64,000 bases of DNA from Thermococcus sp. 21S9 (GCF_012027635.1 NZ_SNUS01000001.1:1798001-1862000), one strand, 5' to 3'; shown: positions 26,113 to 33,958, counted from the first letter of the stretch. The notes: generated from the letters alone by a model not told the origin. Numbers and translations: made by a program.

Positions 26113-26574
26113 ATGGCCGAGATGATAATACCCTATCCACAGCTCCAGAAGATTCTGGAGAGGACCTGTGAGCTCGCGGTCATCAAGCCGAGGGCCGAGG
26201 AGATGATGGACATCGTTGAGAAGAAGCTCAGCGACCTCTTCGAGGTTGCCTACGAGAACGCCAAGGCCGAGCGCTCAAGCACGATAAAGATGCGCCACAT
26301 ACCGATTACCAAGGGCTTCAAGAACAGCCTGAACCTCTTCAGGGCGGTCATCGAGGACGAGAAGGTCCAGATTGAGCCCATCAGGAAGTACGTCCTCAAG
26401 AAGATACCCGGCGACATCCCGCTCGAGGAAGAGGTTGTCAACGAGCTTCCGATTATCGCGGGAACCCTCTTCGTGCTCATCGGAAGGGTAATCAAGGCTC
26501 TCCACCCGGAGATTAAGAACGTCTACCCGGAGCACATCGAGGAGGCCAAGAAGGTTCTGGACTACACGCTCTGA
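26113..26574 (+). CDS. DUF1931 double-histone-fold protein
   Basis: 153-residue, all-helical protein. DUF1931 proteins consist of two histone-like folds in one chain; archaeal members are abundant and proposed to act on DNA, but the role is not settled. The sequence shows the expected two repeats separated near residue 75 ([20 protein letters not shown], then [19 protein letters not shown]). GGAGGTGAT is ideally placed and the promoter is near consensus. Confidence 0.85.
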
Positions 26575-26663
26575 TGCCTTTCTTCTACTTTAAAGTTACT
26601 TTTCTTTACGCTTCTAAGAGGAAACGCTTATAAGCGCTGGGCCGTATTCTGAGCGGTGGTTGG

Positions 26664-27821
26664 GTGAAGAGGGGCATCGTTGCGCTCATCGTTTCACTCC
26701 TCCTGTTCCTTCCGCTCGTCACAGGTGCAACTATGAAATGTCCTTCTAGAGCTCCGGCCGATAAAGTCGTTTGCAGGTTAGAGGGTAACGGGACGGGAAA
26801 ACTCTACCTGAAGAGCGTTGATGGGATTCCTCCTAGGGGATACTTAATCACGATAAGGGACTCGAAGGGATACAAGCACTCTATCAACGATGAGTGGGAT
26901 ACCTTCGAACTCCCCGCCAACATTAGTTTCAGTATAAGGTGGATTCTGAGTGGAATAAAAGACCACTACTTTGACTTCGTTCCCGACTGGGTTCTCTTCA
27001 ACAAGAAGCACACGTTTATGTTCGTTTTCATTGGGGAAAATGGAACTCAAAAGACGTTTGATGTACGGGTTTATGTTGAGGGGAAGCCGAACTGGGCCGA
27101 ACTGGAGGACAATTTGATTATTTCTCTCATAGCGTCATTTCTCACAGGTTTTGTGGCTCTAGGTTTACTGCTTCTTGCAACTTGGGGCGGAAAACGTAAG
27201 AATAAATCTTTGACATATAAGTTTGCGGTTCTGTCTGGGTTGTTGCTTATTTTGCTCATGGCAGAGTTCTACTTCCTCGGTCCCAATACTTTCGGATTGC
27301 TATACTACTATTTCGGAACTGGTAAAAGCCTTTACGGGGATATCGTTTTTGGACTCTCAATCTGGGTTGTTTTAATTCTCGTTACAATCCTTCTCTGGGG
27401 CTATTACATCATTCCCCTTCAGTTATCCTCTGTCGCTTACAATAAATCCCTCTCGAAACTCAAACATCAAAGAACGTATCCACTGTTTGGACTAAGCTGG
27501 GCACTGTTCCCGTTCCTTTTCATTTATCCACTTTCCAAACTTGAAACATTGCTTCTAATTGTTGGGTTTTTCATTCTTGCCACCAGACCAGCCCTAAGTA
27601 AAGTCCGCTTGGAGTTGGTTCTTCTTGTAAACCTCGCCATTGCGGGCTTCCTCATGCTCAAATACCGCCCGGATTTTGCGTTCGTGGCATTTCTGATCGT
27701 CCTCCTCTTCGTGATGTACTTTATTCAGAAAAAGTGCTTCAAGCGCTTCACGGCGGAAAAAGAACGCCTGATTGCGGAAATTGAAGAGAAGGTCGCAAAA
27801 ATTGAGGGGGCAGGAAGATGA
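26664..27821 (+). CDS. ectodomain plus polytopic membrane protein, paralogue A of a five-gene family
   Basis: 385 residues. Signal peptide 1-22, then an extracellular region of about 120 residues opening with Cys26 and Cys37 (x10 between them), with NGT sites and ending in the strand pattern NGTQKTFDVRVYVEG. About eight transmembrane helices follow from residue 150. The C-terminus is a charged helix that may form a coiled coil. It shares ectodomain layout with the genes at 27818, 28963 and 30723. No known family recognised. GTG start after GGTGG; the stop overlaps the next ATG by four bases. AT-richer than flanking genes. Confidence 0.8.
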   Translation: MKRGIVALIVSLLLFLPLVTGATMKCPSRAPADKVVCRLEGNGTGKLYLKSVDGIPPRGYLITIRDSKGYKHSINDEWDTFELPANISFSIRWILSGIKDHYFDFVPDWVLFNKKHTFMFVFIGENGTQKTFDVRVYVEGKPNWAELEDNLIISLIASFLTGFVALGLLLLATWGGKRKNKSLTYKFAVLSGLLLILLMAEFYFLGPNTFGLLYYYFGTGKSLYGDIVFGLSIWVVLILVTILLWGYYIIPLQLSSVAYNKSLSKLKHQRTYPLFGLSWALFPFLFIYPLSKLETLLLIVGFFILATRPALSKVRLELVLLVNLAIAGFLMLKYRPDFAFVAFLIVLLFVMYFIQKKCFKRFTAEKERLIAEIEEKVAKIEGAGR

Positions 27822-28924
27822 GAAAGCTCGCCGTCCTGCTCATTGTCCTGTCATTGGTACTTCCTCACGTTTCAGCCACCGAGCTGACCTGCCAGAAAAC
27901 CCTTCCTCCCACCCCCAGCGACATGTACTGCAACCTGACCGGGCAGGGAAACCTAAGCGTGAGGGTGGTTGCATTTGACAATATTTCCGTTATGGATAGA
28001 TACTACAGCTATGGTCACTGGGTAAAAGTGCCAGGAAAGAACATCCTGGGTATAAAATCGATTTCCAGTCCAATTTTCCTTGGGCCCAATTCAACCGCTG
28101 AGTTTCGGATTGATATGGGGGGTATTATAAGCACGGCCTCTTCGAGGATAGGTCTCGATAGCTCATATAATTGGATTTTCAACGGGAAAGAGAACTACAT
28201 AACCTTTGAAATCGTCCACTCGAACGGGACGGTTGAGAAGAAGACCATTGAAGTCTTCATTGAAGGAGGACCGAAGTCCCCTCTCGAGCTTGACAGGTAC
28301 ACGCGGATTCTCATAATCTTTCTTGCCCTCTACCTGGCAATAGTGGCAGTTTGGGAAATACGGCGCTCCAAGAAAAAACGAAAAGAGAAATCGGAATACA
28401 ACCCATCGAGACTGACATACATGGGAGTAACGCTCGGTATGGTTGGTCCCCTCCTCAGCGTTTCGCCGTGGTTGCTCTACTACCTTGGAACTCCAACCGG
28501 TTATTACGGGGACTTCCGCCTGTATCTCTCCACGATTCCGTTAATAACCCTCACACTGTACTTCCTCGCGGACTTTTGGAAGTTCAAGAGAGAGGGAAGA
28601 GCTTATGTTTTCAAAAATCCGCCGGTGACGGGCGTTGAATGGATTACCCTCACACTGCTGGCGTTCAACCCCTGGTACTTCCCCGTGGTCATCGGTGCTT
28701 TCTTCCTGCTATTCGTCCTCAACCTTAAGGAAAGGCTCAACAGGTTAATGCGCCTAGCAGGTTTAATCTCGCCCCTCTGGGCGTTCTACCTCGCTAAGAC
28801 GTTCGGTGGGGACGCGGTTTTCAAGTACTCGCTCATTGCCCTGGCCGTCCTTCACGTCGCACTGATTAACTGGGTCGTGATGAACATTCCTAAAAAACCG
28901 AAGAGAAGTCCCGGGGTAGAGTAG
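27818..28924 (+). CDS. ectodomain plus polytopic membrane protein, paralogue B
   Basis: 368 residues. Signal peptide 1-20, Cys25 and Cys38 at the start of the mature chain, then a beta-rich extracellular domain closing with NGTVEKKTIEVFIEGGP. A membrane anchor (about 165-180) and a basic cytoplasmic stretch RRSKKKRKEK follow, then six or so helices containing the family signature PPVTGVEWITLTLLAF. Clear paralogue of the gene at 30723, which has PPVTGIEWIPLALISF in the same place. Translation probably coupled to paralogue A through ATGA. Function unknown. Confidence 0.8.
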   Translation: MRKLAVLLIVLSLVLPHVSATELTCQKTLPPTPSDMYCNLTGQGNLSVRVVAFDNISVMDRYYSYGHWVKVPGKNILGIKSISSPIFLGPNSTAEFRIDMGGIISTASSRIGLDSSYNWIFNGKENYITFEIVHSNGTVEKKTIEVFIEGGPKSPLELDRYTRILIIFLALYLAIVAVWEIRRSKKKRKEKSEYNPSRLTYMGVTLGMVGPLLSVSPWLLYYLGTPTGYYGDFRLYLSTIPLITLTLYFLADFWKFKREGRAYVFKNPPVTGVEWITLTLLAFNPWYFPVVIGAFFLLFVLNLKERLNRLMRLAGLISPLWAFYLAKTFGGDAVFKYSLIALAVLHVALINWVVMNIPKKPKRSPGVE

Positions 28925-28962
28925 GTCCCCCATACGTTCGAAAGGGCATGGAGGTAAGGGGC

Positions 28963-30042
28963 ATGAAAAAAGTATTCACAGCAATAGCTCTGTTACTCCT
29001 TTTTAGCCTGATTCCTTTAGTTAATGCAGTTCACGTTGAGTGCTCTAAGACAGCAGAATACAATGAAAACTTTGGAGTTTGGGTGTTAAAATGCAACGTT
29101 GGTGAAGCCCCCCGTTATCCTGATTATTATGCCAAAGTTGGATTAAAAACGACAGGAATTGAACCAATTCGGAGAGGATTGTTTGGAATATGGATTTCTG
29201 AGGCGGATTTGGTTAATTTTACACCTACTGTTTTACCCGACGTTGCTTTCGCTCAAATGAACGTCCCGGTTACAATTTATATTATCACATACGACTCCAA
29301 TGGAACGCCGGTAATCATTGCAACGAAAAGTACCGAGGCGAAACTAAAAATGCCTGTAAAGGGCTATGTCCTCTCTTTGATATGGGGCCTCTTAGGGTTG
29401 TTTCTTCTGTTCATAGCAGGCTACACTAAATGGGACAGCGGAAAGGGCCTCGTTGGAGACCTATTGTCGACATACTTCATTTTTAGAGGGGCTTTCGTGC
29501 CTTCCCTCTCAGCTCTTCTGATGATACCCTTCGCGACGTTTTCAATGATGTCAAACGGAAGAAACGAGACGTCCGCCCTCGTTCTTTCTGGTCTCTCTGC
29601 CCTTCTGCTGTTCGAGAGTGCGTACGCCTACGGAATCGCAAAGTCGAAGTATCCAAAGATATCCTTCTACACCGGCCTCGGCTGGCTTGCAGGCCTTCCG
29701 CTCGCGTTTAGCTTCCACTGGAGCGACTACTTTTACCCGTTTACACTTCCCCTCCTGCTGGCCGTTCCTCTGATGATAATCCTTTGGAGGTATGCCGAAC
29801 TGCCGTACTCAAAGTGCCGTCGGGTTCTCTTGTTCTTCAGAACTTACTCCACACCGCTAAGCATCGGCGTTGCGCTCGTTCTCGCGCTCCAGTACACAAC
29901 CGAGGAAACGACTTCGCTGTTTTCGGTGTTCATCGTTTCACTGTTTATCTACGCGCTCACCTCAAAGCTCGCCTTTGAAAAGCTGGAATGGGCGAAAAGA
30001 AAGTTCGACGAGGACATTGAGAGAATCAAAAAGAGGTGTTAG
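28963..30042 (+). CDS. ectodomain plus polytopic membrane protein, paralogue C (divergent)
   Basis: 359 residues. Signal peptide 1-22; Cys27 and Cys44 follow directly; the ectodomain of about 95 residues is shorter than in A, B and E and lacks the Gly/Pro-rich end. The membrane part has about eight helices, with FYTGLGWLAGLPLAF in the position of the TG-x-EW block. GGAGGT precedes ATG 28963; an upstream ATG at 28948 overlaps that site. Codon use is noticeably AT-rich in the first 400 bases. Starts 38 bases after B. Confidence 0.78.
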   Translation: MKKVFTAIALLLLFSLIPLVNAVHVECSKTAEYNENFGVWVLKCNVGEAPRYPDYYAKVGLKTTGIEPIRRGLFGIWISEADLVNFTPTVLPDVAFAQMNVPVTIYIITYDSNGTPVIIATKSTEAKLKMPVKGYVLSLIWGLLGLFLLFIAGYTKWDSGKGLVGDLLSTYFIFRGAFVPSLSALLMIPFATFSMMSNGRNETSALVLSGLSALLLFESAYAYGIAKSKYPKISFYTGLGWLAGLPLAFSFHWSDYFYPFTLPLLLAVPLMIILWRYAELPYSKCRRVLLFFRTYSTPLSIGVALVLALQYTTEETTSLFSVFIVSLFIYALTSKLAFEKLEWAKRKFDEDIERIKKRC

Positions 30043-30045
30043 AGC

Positions 30046-30726
30046 ATGGCCACTCCTGAAATCATTAAAACTTTAGAGCACGTTGCAGTTGCATTTTTCA
30101 ACGGACTTTTTAAGACGATAGTTGAAAACCTGATATGGATAATTGCAATCACATTCTTTTTGATTGTAAGCTGGGCCCTCGAAACGTCGAGGCTTGTGAT
30201 GGGTAAAGCACCAGAGCCAAGAAATAATAAAGAGCCGGTGGGAACTCTCGATTTGGTACTGGTAATGTTGTTCCTGCCGGGTCTCATATACTCCCTCATC
30301 TGGTATCCTCTTTCATGGGTTGCCGGCCCCGGTGTCGTTGAGGGGCATATCCCGGAAATTCTCACGCTCTCCGTTATGGTGGCCATGATAATGTTTGAGA
30401 GGGCGGAGGCAAAAAATGAAAAGTACGTCTCAACAGGACTGGAGTGGATTCCACTATCGGCCATAGGATACCCAGACGAACTGAGCTACCTCCTTCTGGG
30501 ATTTCCCCTCGTTGTGTTCTTAGGACGATTCGACAGACCGAGAAATGCCCTGAGAAAAGTTTCGCCTGTTGTCTCAGCCCTGTGGTTGGGTCTCGGTTTC
30601 GTAATGGGAGCCTTCCCACCAACGACCATTCTCTGGCTCGGACCGGCGTGTTTGGTCCTGTGCGCAACGGTTGCCGGCAGGGACATTCCATTCTTCTTGA
30701 GAAGTGATAAGGGGTGGGCGGCATGA
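30046..30726 (+). CDS. membrane protein, paralogue D lacking the ectodomain
   Basis: 226 residues with no signal peptide and no cysteine-pair ectodomain, but with the family's membrane core: about five helices and YVSTGLEWIPLSAIGY, matching the PPVTG-x-EWI-x-L block of B and E. It looks like a family member reduced to the membrane domain. It starts three bases after C and overlaps E by four bases (ATGA), so C, D and E are probably one translational unit. Confidence 0.78.
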   Translation: MATPEIIKTLEHVAVAFFNGLFKTIVENLIWIIAITFFLIVSWALETSRLVMGKAPEPRNNKEPVGTLDLVLVMLFLPGLIYSLIWYPLSWVAGPGVVEGHIPEILTLSVMVAMIMFERAEAKNEKYVSTGLEWIPLSAIGYPDELSYLLLGFPLVVFLGRFDRPRNALRKVSPVVSALWLGLGFVMGAFPPTTILWLGPACLVLCATVAGRDIPFFLRSDKGWAA

Positions 30727-31943
30727 AGAAAGGAAACTGGTGGAAGCTTATTGTAACGCTAATCGTCATAATGGTAGCAGTCCCATCTGCTAAACCTGTG
30801 TTTGGAGCGGATATTGTATGTTCTCAAATGATAAACGCAACCCACCCCGTCTTAGAATGCACAATCTCGGGAAGTCCAATGGAGAATGTTAAGGTTAAAT
30901 TAAAGTCCTTCAACGGTGTTCCAGTTCACGTCAAACTCTCAGGAACAAAACTTGTAAATGGCCAGGAAGTTCAAGTTAACCCCGAAAAAGAATTCGTAGA
31001 AGTGCCCTTTAGTATCTCGCTGGGTTTAAACTCCTCCATAGAGCAGTTCATGGAATATCTCCATCTTAATTCAAGCAATAAGTGGATTCTCTACAACAAG
31101 GTTAGCACGCTGACCTTTGAGCTCAGCTATCCGAACGGAACGGCCAAAGAAACACAGGTTGGAGTTTATATTTCCGGGAAGGTGCCCTCTCCCCTCAGCG
31201 ACAAGGAAACGAGAGATTTTTTACTTCATTTAGCTTTTCCATACATTCTGCTGTTGCTCATAGTTCTTGCGTATCAGGCCTACAGGTTTATTCGATGGAA
31301 TCCCCTTGAAAGCGGGGAGCGTGAGGAAAAGGAAGACGAGGAAATACCGAAGCTTGGGAAGTTGAGAACGTCCTTTGCGTTTTCTGGTCTTATAGGAGCT
31401 GGTTTTGGACTTTTCCTGCTCCCATGGGCACTGTACCTTTTTGCAACCCCACCAAAGATGGTGAGCGATGTCGTTCTCTACATCCCAATCACGGCTATGC
31501 TTGGTCTTATCATTGAATGGAGGGCATTTACAAGCGTAGTCGAGAAGAGTGGCAGGGTTTATCTGCTCAGGACTCCACCTGTTACGGGAATCGAATGGAT
31601 ACCTCTTGCGCTCATTTCATTCAGGGGCTGGATTGTCCTCGCTGGATTTTTTGGGTATCTCGCCACCTTTGCACTCAGCATGAACAGAAAGCTCAGCAGG
31701 CAACTCATTAAGGTAGCCGTGATAATATCTCCCATCACTGCTCTGCTTCTTATCGTCTGCTTTACAGGAGATTTCACCTTCATCGCCGGAATTCTCCTGC
31801 TCTCATACCTCTATCCATACCTGATTAAGTCAAAATCAGAAACTGCTCCCAGTTTAGAAGAGGTTCAGCCCGTCTTCAGAAGTCCCGAAGTCCAAGAAAT
31901 ACTTGAGACCTTTGAGAAAGTGCTGAGGGAAAGAAAAGATTAG
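30723..31943 (+). CDS. ectodomain plus polytopic membrane protein, paralogue E
   Basis: 406 residues. Signal peptide 1-28, Cys33 and Cys46, a beta-rich ectodomain ending NGTAKETQVGVYISG, an anchor helix (about 175-193), an acidic cytoplasmic stretch EREEKEDEE, then membrane helices with PPVTGIEWIPLALISF. The C-terminal 35 residues are soluble and charged. Start at ATG 30723 through the ATGA overlap; the GTG at 30714 is less likely. Its stop overlaps the convergent peptidase by four bases. Confidence 0.8.
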   Translation: MKKGNWWKLIVTLIVIMVAVPSAKPVFGADIVCSQMINATHPVLECTISGSPMENVKVKLKSFNGVPVHVKLSGTKLVNGQEVQVNPEKEFVEVPFSISLGLNSSIEQFMEYLHLNSSNKWILYNKVSTLTFELSYPNGTAKETQVGVYISGKVPSPLSDKETRDFLLHLAFPYILLLLIVLAYQAYRFIRWNPLESGEREEKEDEEIPKLGKLRTSFAFSGLIGAGFGLFLLPWALYLFATPPKMVSDVVLYIPITAMLGLIIEWRAFTSVVEKSGRVYLLRTPPVTGIEWIPLALISFRGWIVLAGFFGYLATFALSMNRKLSRQLIKVAVIISPITALLLIVCFTGDFTFIAGILLLSYLYPYLIKSKSETAPSLEEVQPVFRSPEVQEILETFEKVLRERKD

Positions 31944-33835
31944 CCCCTCAACCACCTCTCCATCCACCCTACGATAAGTTCAAGCCTCTTAACCCTGTGC
32001 TTCGGCTTTCCGCTCCTGCTCAGGTCGTGGTTCTCGCCAGGGAAGAGGGCGAGCTCAACGGTCTTGCCGAGGTATTTCAGAGCGGTGTAGAACTGCAACG
32101 CTTCCGGAAGCCAGCAACGGTAGTCCTCCATCGAATGGATTATCAGGAGAGGAGTTTCCACGTTCGGCGCGTACTTAAGCGGGCTCTTCTCCCAGTAGCC
32201 GTCGGTGTTGCTCCAGGGGTCGCCACCTATCTGGTCTGGAGCAAAGAAGTAGCCGATGTCCGTTGTGCCGAAGAAGCTCACCCAGTTCGAAATCGAGCGC
32301 TGGGTTACGGCAGACTTGAAGCGCTTGGTGTGGCCGACTATCCAGTTGGTCATGAAACCCCCGTAGGAACCGCCGGTAACTCCAAGCCTCTCCCCGTCAA
32401 TGAAGTCGAATCTCCTTAGGGCCTCGTCAACGACCTCCATGAGGTCCTTATAATCCCGCTCCCCGTAGTGGCCCCTTATATCGGCGAACTCCTCACCGTA
32501 GCCGTCGCTACCGCGCGGGTTGGAGAATATCACGACGAAGCCTTTAGCCGTCAAAACGTGGAACTCGTGCATGAAGGCGTAGCCGTAAGCCGTCTTCGGC
32601 CCGCCGTGGATTTCGAGAACGGCCGGGTACTTCTTTCCCGGCTCAAAACCAACGGGCTTCATAATCCAGGCGTCTATCTCAACGCCGTCGCTGGCCTTAA
32701 CCGTGAAGTGCTCCGGTCTGGAGAGATTATATTCCCTAATCCAGCCGTTGAAGTCGGTGACCCTCTTCTCATTGCCGTCGCGGAGGACGTAGAGTTCCAG
32801 TGGAGTGACCGCGTCCTGGGCGGTGAAAGCTATGTAGTCGCCGATTGCGAAGCTCTCGACGCTCCTGTCACCGCCGATGACGCGCTCTATCTTCCCCTCA
32901 AGGTTCACCCTGAAGAGGTTCGCCCTCGGGCCGTCGGTTGCAACGTAGTAGACCCAGCCGTCCCTGAAGACCAGCTCGGCCCTCTGTGCTCCACGAACGT
33001 CGCTGTTGAGGGAGTTGTAGGCCGAGCGGTCGAGCTTAGCGGTTAGCTTCCTCAGCTCGCCCGTCTCGGGGTTGTAGTGGTAGATGTGCGTGTTCGTCGG
33101 AATGCCCCTCTCCCTCGTGTTGGCCTTGAGGATAAACGTCCCGTCGTCGAGCGGAATGAAATCGCTCACGCCCCACTCTCCGGGAGTTAGCTTTTTCGCT
33201 TTCCTGCCTTCAAGGACGTAGAGGTCGCTCACCATCGGCTTCCTCTCGCGGTCTTCTTGAGCTATAAAGTAGAGCTTTCCATCGTGGAAGCGAACCTGCG
33301 AGACGTCGAGGTTCTTAGGGGTTACGCGCCTCTTCCTTCCGCTCTCGACGTCAACGAGGTAAACGACGCTCCTCTTCCCGTAGACCCAGCCGACGCCGTT
33401 GAACCAGAAGGGAATCTCTTTGATAAGGTGAACGTCATCCTTGGGCTTTTTCTCGACGTCTATCGGCGTTATAACGGCTATGCTCTTACCGTCCTCGGTG
33501 AAGCGGAGGTTTTTGATGCCGTACTTGAACTTCGCTAAAAGCCTCGCCTCACCGCCGTCGGTTGGGATGACGTAGAGCTCGGACTCTTTGCTCTCCCTAT
33601 CGCGCTTGGAGGTGAAGGCTATCAGCTTCCCGTCTGGCGAAAATCTCGGGTTTGAGTCCTTCCTTCCCGAGGTGAAGGGTTTAACCTTCCTGCCGTCGTA
33701 GAGGTAAAGCCTTGAGAAGTAGTCGTCCTTCTCGACGCTTATCTCGGTAACCTGGAAGACGACCTTCCGCCTGAAGGCATCGAGGTTGCCGACGAGCTTG
33801 AACTTTCCGAGGTCCTTCTCGGTCAGACCTTTCAT
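31940..33835 (-). CDS. S9-family prolyl oligopeptidase / acylaminoacyl peptidase
   Basis: 631-residue cytoplasmic serine peptidase. The N-terminal part (to about residue 370) is a beta-propeller with repeated S-P-D-G-K-like blades (NPRFSPDGKLIAFTS). The C-terminal alpha/beta hydrolase has the nucleophile in VTGGSYGGF, the acid in HSMEDYRCW and the histidine in PGENHDLSR. Such enzymes remove acylated or short N-terminal residues from peptides. ATG 33835 follows GGTGG. It is monocistronic and convergent with the five-gene membrane cluster. Confidence 0.93.
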   Translation of the reverse strand: MKGLTEKDLGKFKLVGNLDAFRRKVVFQVTEISVEKDDYFSRLYLYDGRKVKPFTSGRKDSNPRFSPDGKLIAFTSKRDRESKESELYVIPTDGGEARLLAKFKYGIKNLRFTEDGKSIAVITPIDVEKKPKDDVHLIKEIPFWFNGVGWVYGKRSVVYLVDVESGRKRRVTPKNLDVSQVRFHDGKLYFIAQEDRERKPMVSDLYVLEGRKAKKLTPGEWGVSDFIPLDDGTFILKANTRERGIPTNTHIYHYNPETGELRKLTAKLDRSAYNSLNSDVRGAQRAELVFRDGWVYYVATDGPRANLFRVNLEGKIERVIGGDRSVESFAIGDYIAFTAQDAVTPLELYVLRDGNEKRVTDFNGWIREYNLSRPEHFTVKASDGVEIDAWIMKPVGFEPGKKYPAVLEIHGGPKTAYGYAFMHEFHVLTAKGFVVIFSNPRGSDGYGEEFADIRGHYGERDYKDLMEVVDEALRRFDFIDGERLGVTGGSYGGFMTNWIVGHTKRFKSAVTQRSISNWVSFFGTTDIGYFFAPDQIGGDPWSNTDGYWEKSPLKYAPNVETPLLIIHSMEDYRCWLPEALQFYTALKYLGKTVELALFPGENHDLSRSGKPKHRVKRLELIVGWMERWLRG

Positions 33836-33958
33836 AGAAACCACCGGGGTAAGTCGGTGTTTTTCGTATAAAAGCTTAGCGTTTCGATGGATATCGAGAC
33901 ATCTCGAAAGCTCCGAAGGTTTTTAAATTCCCCTTCTCCCCTTTAGCGGGGGGAAGCC

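Follow-up and report, generated by a model that had tools for sequence, protein, structure and literature searches.

A mosaic array of predicted Ig-headed membrane proteins at an accessory hotspot of the Thermococcaceae, a candidate surface recognition complex

Bacterial receptors of the 7TMR-DISM type combine a signal peptide, a beta-sandwich ectodomain, seven TM helices and a cytoplasmic C terminus. In the Thermococcales, hypervariable islands named VARTIG have been described, in which a gene for a large multi-Ig protein comes first and genes for membrane proteins follow, and adhesion or self-recognition between cells was proposed as their role (Makarova et al., 2021; PMC8416519). Tandem immunity paralogues of polymorphic toxin systems are known to evolve by recombination (PMC9484751).

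Genes A to E of Thermococcus sp. 21S9 are five consecutive genes on the plus strand, at 26664-31943 of the window, that is, of the whole analysed stretch of 64,000 nt. Their positions, parts and neighbours are as follows.

26113-26574, plus strand: DUF1931 protein gene, a conserved neighbour and the left hotspot boundary
26627-26634, plus strand: TATA-like element CTTATAAG, the probable promoter of the array, proposed from sequence and comparison
26664-27821, plus strand: gene A, encoding a signal peptide, a predicted Ig-like ectodomain with Cys26/Cys37, a membrane core and a short cytoplasmic tail
27818-28924, plus strand: gene B, planned as A, with PPVTGVEW in TM4
28963-30042, plus strand: gene C, planned as A, the most divergent, with Cys27/Cys44
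30046-30726, plus strand: gene D, a membrane core only, with neither signal peptide nor ectodomain, containing STGLEWIPL
30723-31943, plus strand: gene E, planned as A, whose protein was modelled with AlphaFold
30810-31178, plus strand: E ectodomain, residues 30-152, a predicted beta-sandwich with Cys33-Cys46 and a conserved WILYNK motif (AlphaFold, alignment, Foldseek)
31203-31844, plus strand: E membrane core, residues 161-374, about seven short predicted TM helices (AlphaFold and loop charges)
31584-31604, plus strand: TGIEWIP in the E membrane core
31884-31937, plus strand: predicted cytoplasmic C-terminal helix of E, residues 388-405, within a RSPEVxELLExFDRVL-like tail (model and alignment)
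31940-33844, minus strand: S9 (acylaminoacyl-type) peptidase gene, a conserved neighbour convergent with E and the right hotspot boundary

Between the DUF1931 and peptidase genes, this genome has no gene other than A to E. The A/B and D/E junctions are ATGA overlaps, C and D are 3 bp apart, and the gap between B and C is 38 bp, or 23 bp with the alternative C start at 28948. GC content is 45-49% inside the segment against 54-59% outside. The context of CTTATAAG upstream of A is kept, with small changes, in three relatives (G062, G054 and G019). A to E are likely one operon, since CTTATAAG is the sole promoter candidate noted.

Proteins A, B, C and E begin with a signal peptide and, directly at the start of the mature chain, a Cys pair: C26/C37 in A (10 residues between), C25/C38 in B (12), C27/C44 in C (16) and C33/C46 in E (12). 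A beta-rich ectodomain and a multi-helix membrane part follow, and we infer a disulfide between the paired residues. The motif PPVTGxEWIxL is common to B and E, with STGLEWIPL as its counterpart in D; the ectodomains of A, B and E end in an NGT...VxVY/FIxG pattern, of which C has NGT only. The Cys pair is invariant in an alignment of 26 relatives, where only four positions are invariant altogether (C33, C46, F132 and G289). With two Cys, one Phe and one Gly as the sole invariant residues, and no catalytic residue set common to the 26 members, an enzyme is unlikely and this reading was rejected. The RSPEVxELLExFDRVL-like tail is conserved among E-type members. Most A-type proteins carry a second Cys pair, in TM4 (CSGLxW) and after TM7, the TM4 Cys being lost in the A protein of the window.

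In phmmer comparisons, B and E matched with an E-value of 1e-32, A and E with 7e-14, and A and B with 1e-8. D aligned with the membrane part of B (E about 5e-4), and its best profile matches are the B-type membrane cores of G057 and G060. C was aligned by hhalign with the profile of A, B and E (98.1%, E 1e-13) across signal peptide, Cys pair and ectodomain. Judged by these scores, A, B and E are paralogous over their full length, C is related at the level of profiles and D is a headless membrane core. Neither Pfam-A nor NCBIfam had a family above the curated cut-off for the array proteins; a Pfam search of the 26 members at E 0.1 had neither CARDB nor another Ig family among its matches, and matches of single members were taken as chance. 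PADLOC gave no significant defence-model match for A to E, the only hit being that of C to a model of unknown function (E 0.005). PDB sequences contained no match to the family, rhodopsin matches of its profile (E 0.07) being taken as chance. No member was found among the viral contigs, phages and plasmids searched, and an origin from a mobile element, virus or plasmid was rejected on that ground. A to E are, on the evidence of these searches, a previously unnamed membrane-protein family.

The AlphaFold model of E, made with the alignment of 26 relatives, has a mean pLDDT of 83.5 and a pTM of 0.73. Residues from about 30 to 151/152 form an Ig-like beta-sandwich carrying the invariant Cys33-Cys46, and helices span 161-191, 207-231, 243-276, 292-299, 303-318, 322-346 and 351-374, with a tail helix at 388-405. 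We interpret the bundle as seven short helices crossing the membrane, with the N terminus outside, the C terminus inside and the tail helix in the cytoplasm. Loop charges (positive-inside counts), which have loops 2 and 6 facing outward and loops 1 and 3, like the tail, facing the cytoplasm, fit this orientation; TM4 and TM5 may be two short helices or a re-entrant hairpin, the C terminus being inside under both. Alignment and model indicate that TM4 is broken and conserved (TGxEW) and that an extracellular Asp is conserved. The model of C has a confident beta-sandwich as ectodomain; its membrane part, with pLDDT mostly <50, was left out of interpretation. Foldseek matched the E head to generic Ig/E-set folds only, with weak E-values, and TM-scores by target length of about 0.4-0.5 against small Ig targets indicate likeness at the level of fold only. 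As modelled, the E ectodomain is of Ig-like (E-set) fold. The membrane part of E had no convincing Foldseek match, and none to a transporter or channel fold; matches to methane monooxygenase and the like (TM-score 0.2) were taken as chance.

Much of this had been anticipated in a preliminary description of the locus. The five same-strand genes with ATGA overlaps or gaps of 3-38 bases, the AT-richer segment, the signal peptide and Cys pair of spacing 10-16 at the mature start of four proteins, and the related motifs of B, E and D all agree with the gene coordinates, base composition and protein sequences. Its beta-rich ectodomain is a beta-sandwich in the models of E and C, and the suggested shared ancestry of an unrecognised membrane-protein family is upheld by phmmer, hhalign and the database searches. 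The NGT...VxVY/FIxG ending, attributed to four proteins, holds for A, B and E and fails for C.

Profile matches to the family were found in 20 of 115 genomes of the phylum, all Thermococcaceae, and in 22 of 396 relatives, of which 21 are Thermococcaceae and one lies outside the family (among about 300 other genomes). This single outside match is weak, covers the head only and falls in a secreted beta-rich protein adjoining ABC-transporter genes. A contig scan with E-type members gave five Thermococcaceae records, all of them MAGs. Most Thermococcus carriers have their family genes between the DUF1931 and S9 peptidase genes, an interval that is empty in eight genomes (59-93 bp) and elsewhere filled with up to 8 kb. 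By this comparison, which covers 26574-31940 of the window and loci L092-L111, the interval is an accessory hotspot across the Thermococcaceae. Loci carry one to five copies, and decayed copies occur; the combinations are as follows.

Window genome (G000): A-B-C-D-E
G062: decayed A with B-C-D-E
G033: E alone with a D remnant
G019 and G054: A-C
G042: gene F (see below) with C-A
G046, G048 and G067: F with E-A
G060: F with E-B
G057: F with E-B-A
G068: F with E and a broken A
G028: broken C

Pseudogenes occur in G062, G068, G050, G028 and others. Relatives on the Pyrococcus side (genus g3: G009, G011 and G007) carry the genes at another site, as one or two copies of which some are broken. A lone family member of ~450 aa is present at another locus common to G033 and G019 (L041:5949-7316 and L049:7895-9244).

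Other cargo of the hotspot includes VapBC-like genes, an ABC transporter, an unknown two-gene pair, a Ppl-like pair and a Tiamat homologue. The Tiamat (TmtA) homologue of G046 (L043:6894-11462; PADLOC E 6e-280) lies between the family genes and the peptidase gene, and the PHP and AAA-ATPase gene pair in the G087 hotspot (L101:1077-3697) resembles a split Ppl defence protein. A 477-aa protein adjoining the ABC transporter in the G018 hotspot (L094:2700-4133) partially matches the prokaryotic viperin model (PADLOC E 4e-23). The unknown two-gene unit recurs (L093, L095, L104, L106 and L110) and encodes a protein of about 267 aa, starting MTRLALFYYAG or similar, followed by a ~285-aa protein with two hydrophobic segments. 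No defence match was obtained for the proteins sampled from the hotspot in L092, L093, L099, L100 and L102. Since the cargo also includes non-defence genes (the ABC transporter, the unknowns), location in the hotspot is weak evidence for a conflict role.

Gene F, placed divergently from E in six genomes, encodes a protein with the plan of the array proteins; homology of F to the A-E family (hhalign 3.5%) is unsupported and was rejected. Exactly 60 bp separate the start codons of F and E in all six (L042-L047), and the interval holds a conserved near-palindromic AACTTTTTAAAGTT, with one base different in one genome. It can be read as a two-way TATA element, and the 60 bp as a probable two-way promoter. 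The F profile matched 11 genomes, weaker relatives occurring outside the hotspot at a second locus in G049, G057 and G061 and, broken, in G022 (L117-L120). Next to this second locus lies a gene whose start was recognised by eye as TrkA-like and NAD-binding. The preliminary description had mentioned neither this sixth family, paired with E elsewhere, nor the missing ectodomain of D, the fixed accessory hotspot or VARTIG (PMC8416519).

Compared with the sister species G062, the flanking peptidase gene differs at synonymous sites by 0.34, and E by only 0.08 (p 3e-16); against G033, E differs by 0.11 compared with 0.34 for the flank (p 8e-13). E has, on these figures, been exchanged recently between species, its synonymous difference lying far below that of the flanking peptidase gene. 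B differs from its G062 counterpart by 0.61 (p 3e-12). The head of C has a synonymous difference of 0.75 and 31% amino-acid identity, against 0.42 and 79% for its core, the two parts differing with p 2e-6 for synonymous and 4e-27 for nonsynonymous differences. By this measure, B and the C ectodomain are foreign alleles relative to G062, whereas D and the C core show the pattern of vertical descent (p 0.1) and look vertically inherited. For pairs whose synonymous sites are saturated, A of the window genome and of G054 among them, the data agree with exchange but do not prove it.

For the 26 relatives, the AU test rejects the head tree and the core tree against one another (p 0.004 and 0.0006). 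Both trees recover the A type and the E type as clades; the B type is a clade in the core tree (81%) and a loose grouping in the head tree. A, B and E are, as these trees are read, old and distinct subunit types, largely recognisable as groups across genomes. Omega is about 0.2-0.4 among intact members, against 0.03-0.06 in neighbouring genes, which by this estimate is selection that is relaxed yet purifying; it is <=1 for whole domains wherever estimable, so there is no direct sign of diversifying selection. Tree conflict, exchange and omega of 0.2-0.4 together describe a family that is constrained, fast and mosaic. The rapid evolution and variable copy number expected in the preliminary description were observed, mosaicism being an addition, and neither outcome named there as contrary, namely parts matching different known families or dissimilar paralogues, was encountered.

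We tentatively propose, as a reading that falls somewhat short of probable, that the array encodes a complex for recognition at the cell surface, diversified by recombination and probably serving in conflict between microbes or with viruses. Each ectodomain-bearing subunit would consist of a membrane core of roughly seven helices, a short helix on the cytoplasmic side and, facing outward, a single Ig-like domain bearing an N-terminal disulfide hairpin. Some subunits may assemble as a heteromer. The Ig heads would bind a changing partner outside the cell (a virus, a vesicle, a secreted toxin or a surface structure of another cell), and the cores and tails would relay or block the recognition event. 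Interspecies recombination would replace heads and whole subunits, and gain and loss of the array would take place at a hotspot where some toxin-antitoxin and defence-like genes are also found; a conflict role fits this picture. Paralogy, the invariant Cys pair, the modelled Ig-like head, N-out/C-in charges, patchiness and exchange all fit surface recognition. Against this reading count the lack of a PADLOC match, absence from the viruses, phages and plasmids searched, and omega <=1; the lone relative at a locus shared by two Thermococcus genomes need not be a conflict gene either. The broader idea of an archaeal class of Ig-headed seven-helix receptors, with arrays re-assorted by recombination for variable recognition in viral or inter-microbial conflict, is an unlikely one.

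Tandem diverging paralogues, pseudogenes, exchange between species and the hotspot location would also suit an immunity or exclusion system, in which each subunit shields the producer from one secreted toxin, bacteriocin-like peptide or surface attack and the paralogues widen protection; recombining tandem immunity paralogues are known (PMC9484751). However, no toxin gene adjoins A to E in the DUF1931-peptidase interval of the window genome, and the old A, B and E subtypes have kept their identity, which points to a division of tasks more than to immunity alleles that can replace one another, and we hold this explanation to be improbable. The same lasting subunit types, together with the multi-helix cores, the conserved broken TM4 (TGxEW) and the conserved extracellular Asp, could instead point to a transport or channel complex, or an envelope-assembly module of some Thermococcus, with Ig heads for assembly only. 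This is equally doubtful, as conserved polar membrane residues are very few, no transporter or channel fold was matched, and presence differs between close species.

Adhesion or self-recognition between Thermococcus cells, with no part in attack or defence, would account for surface Ig-like heads, exchange between species and lineage restriction, and was proposed by the VARTIG authors for similar biology (PMC8416519); the array has no secreted or cell-wall adhesin partner and some genomes have a single copy, which makes this less probable still. Finally, pseudogenes (in G062, G068, G050, G028 and others), AT-richness and patchiness might reflect weakly selected accessory genes of little present function riding a permissive chromosomal site. 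Omega of 0.2-0.4 in intact members and Cys residues invariant over deep divergence indicate maintained constraint, and this view is very improbable.

Archaeal surface recognition and conflict systems are poorly known. The array is a compact candidate amenable to genetics, in which alleles naturally swapped between close Thermococcus species could serve as experiments. Its position also reveals a fixed site on the chromosome at which accessory genes, defence-like ones in part, are exchanged among Thermococcaceae.

Among described systems, 7TMR-DISM receptors are alike in the predicted general plan, but the A-E proteins match no 7TMR-DISM family in Pfam and have a tail of about 30 residues only, in place of a cytoplasmic signalling enzyme. 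The Foldseek matches of the E head are of the same generic sandwich type as the CARDB and E-set Ig domains of archaeal surface proteins, and the weak profile match likewise concerns a beta-rich secreted protein, from a different archaeal family; yet none of the 26 members matches a Pfam Ig family at E 0.1. Polymorphic-toxin immunity arrays are likewise strings of related, non-identical genes evolving by recombination, and differ from A-E in that the latter has no toxin and has lasting distinct subunit types.

VARTIG is closest in character, being Thermococcales-specific, patchy and of no known function, with many membrane proteins in its operons and two Cys in its Ig-fold domains; its shuffling between Thermococcales species is likewise found in the A-E array. 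The large multi-Ig, arCOG07710-type first gene has no counterpart in the array. The arCOG07710 tail motif D[ND]NxxxG[GD] is absent from the window and its genome, though such a protein may exist elsewhere in the genome, as some arCOG07710 proteins do not have the motif; it was present in 37 of 94 relatives, never at A-E loci. In the array, Ig head and membrane core belong to a single polypeptide; VARTIG membrane proteins are short (mostly about 130-220 aa in eight sampled regions). Against about 160 VARTIG-locus ORFs, the best matches were marginal (whole-family E 0.013, head-only 7e-4, F profile 0.0045), no genome-wide family match fell within VARTIG loci, and the chromosomal sites differ. 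Membership in VARTIG was rejected for want of the large Ig protein and tail motif and for the different membrane proteins and locus. With the tail motif absent and the membrane proteins showing no convincing homology, the array is best seen as a separate module of similar character, and would be the second case, independent of VARTIG, in which membrane modules with Ig domains have been shuffled in this lineage.
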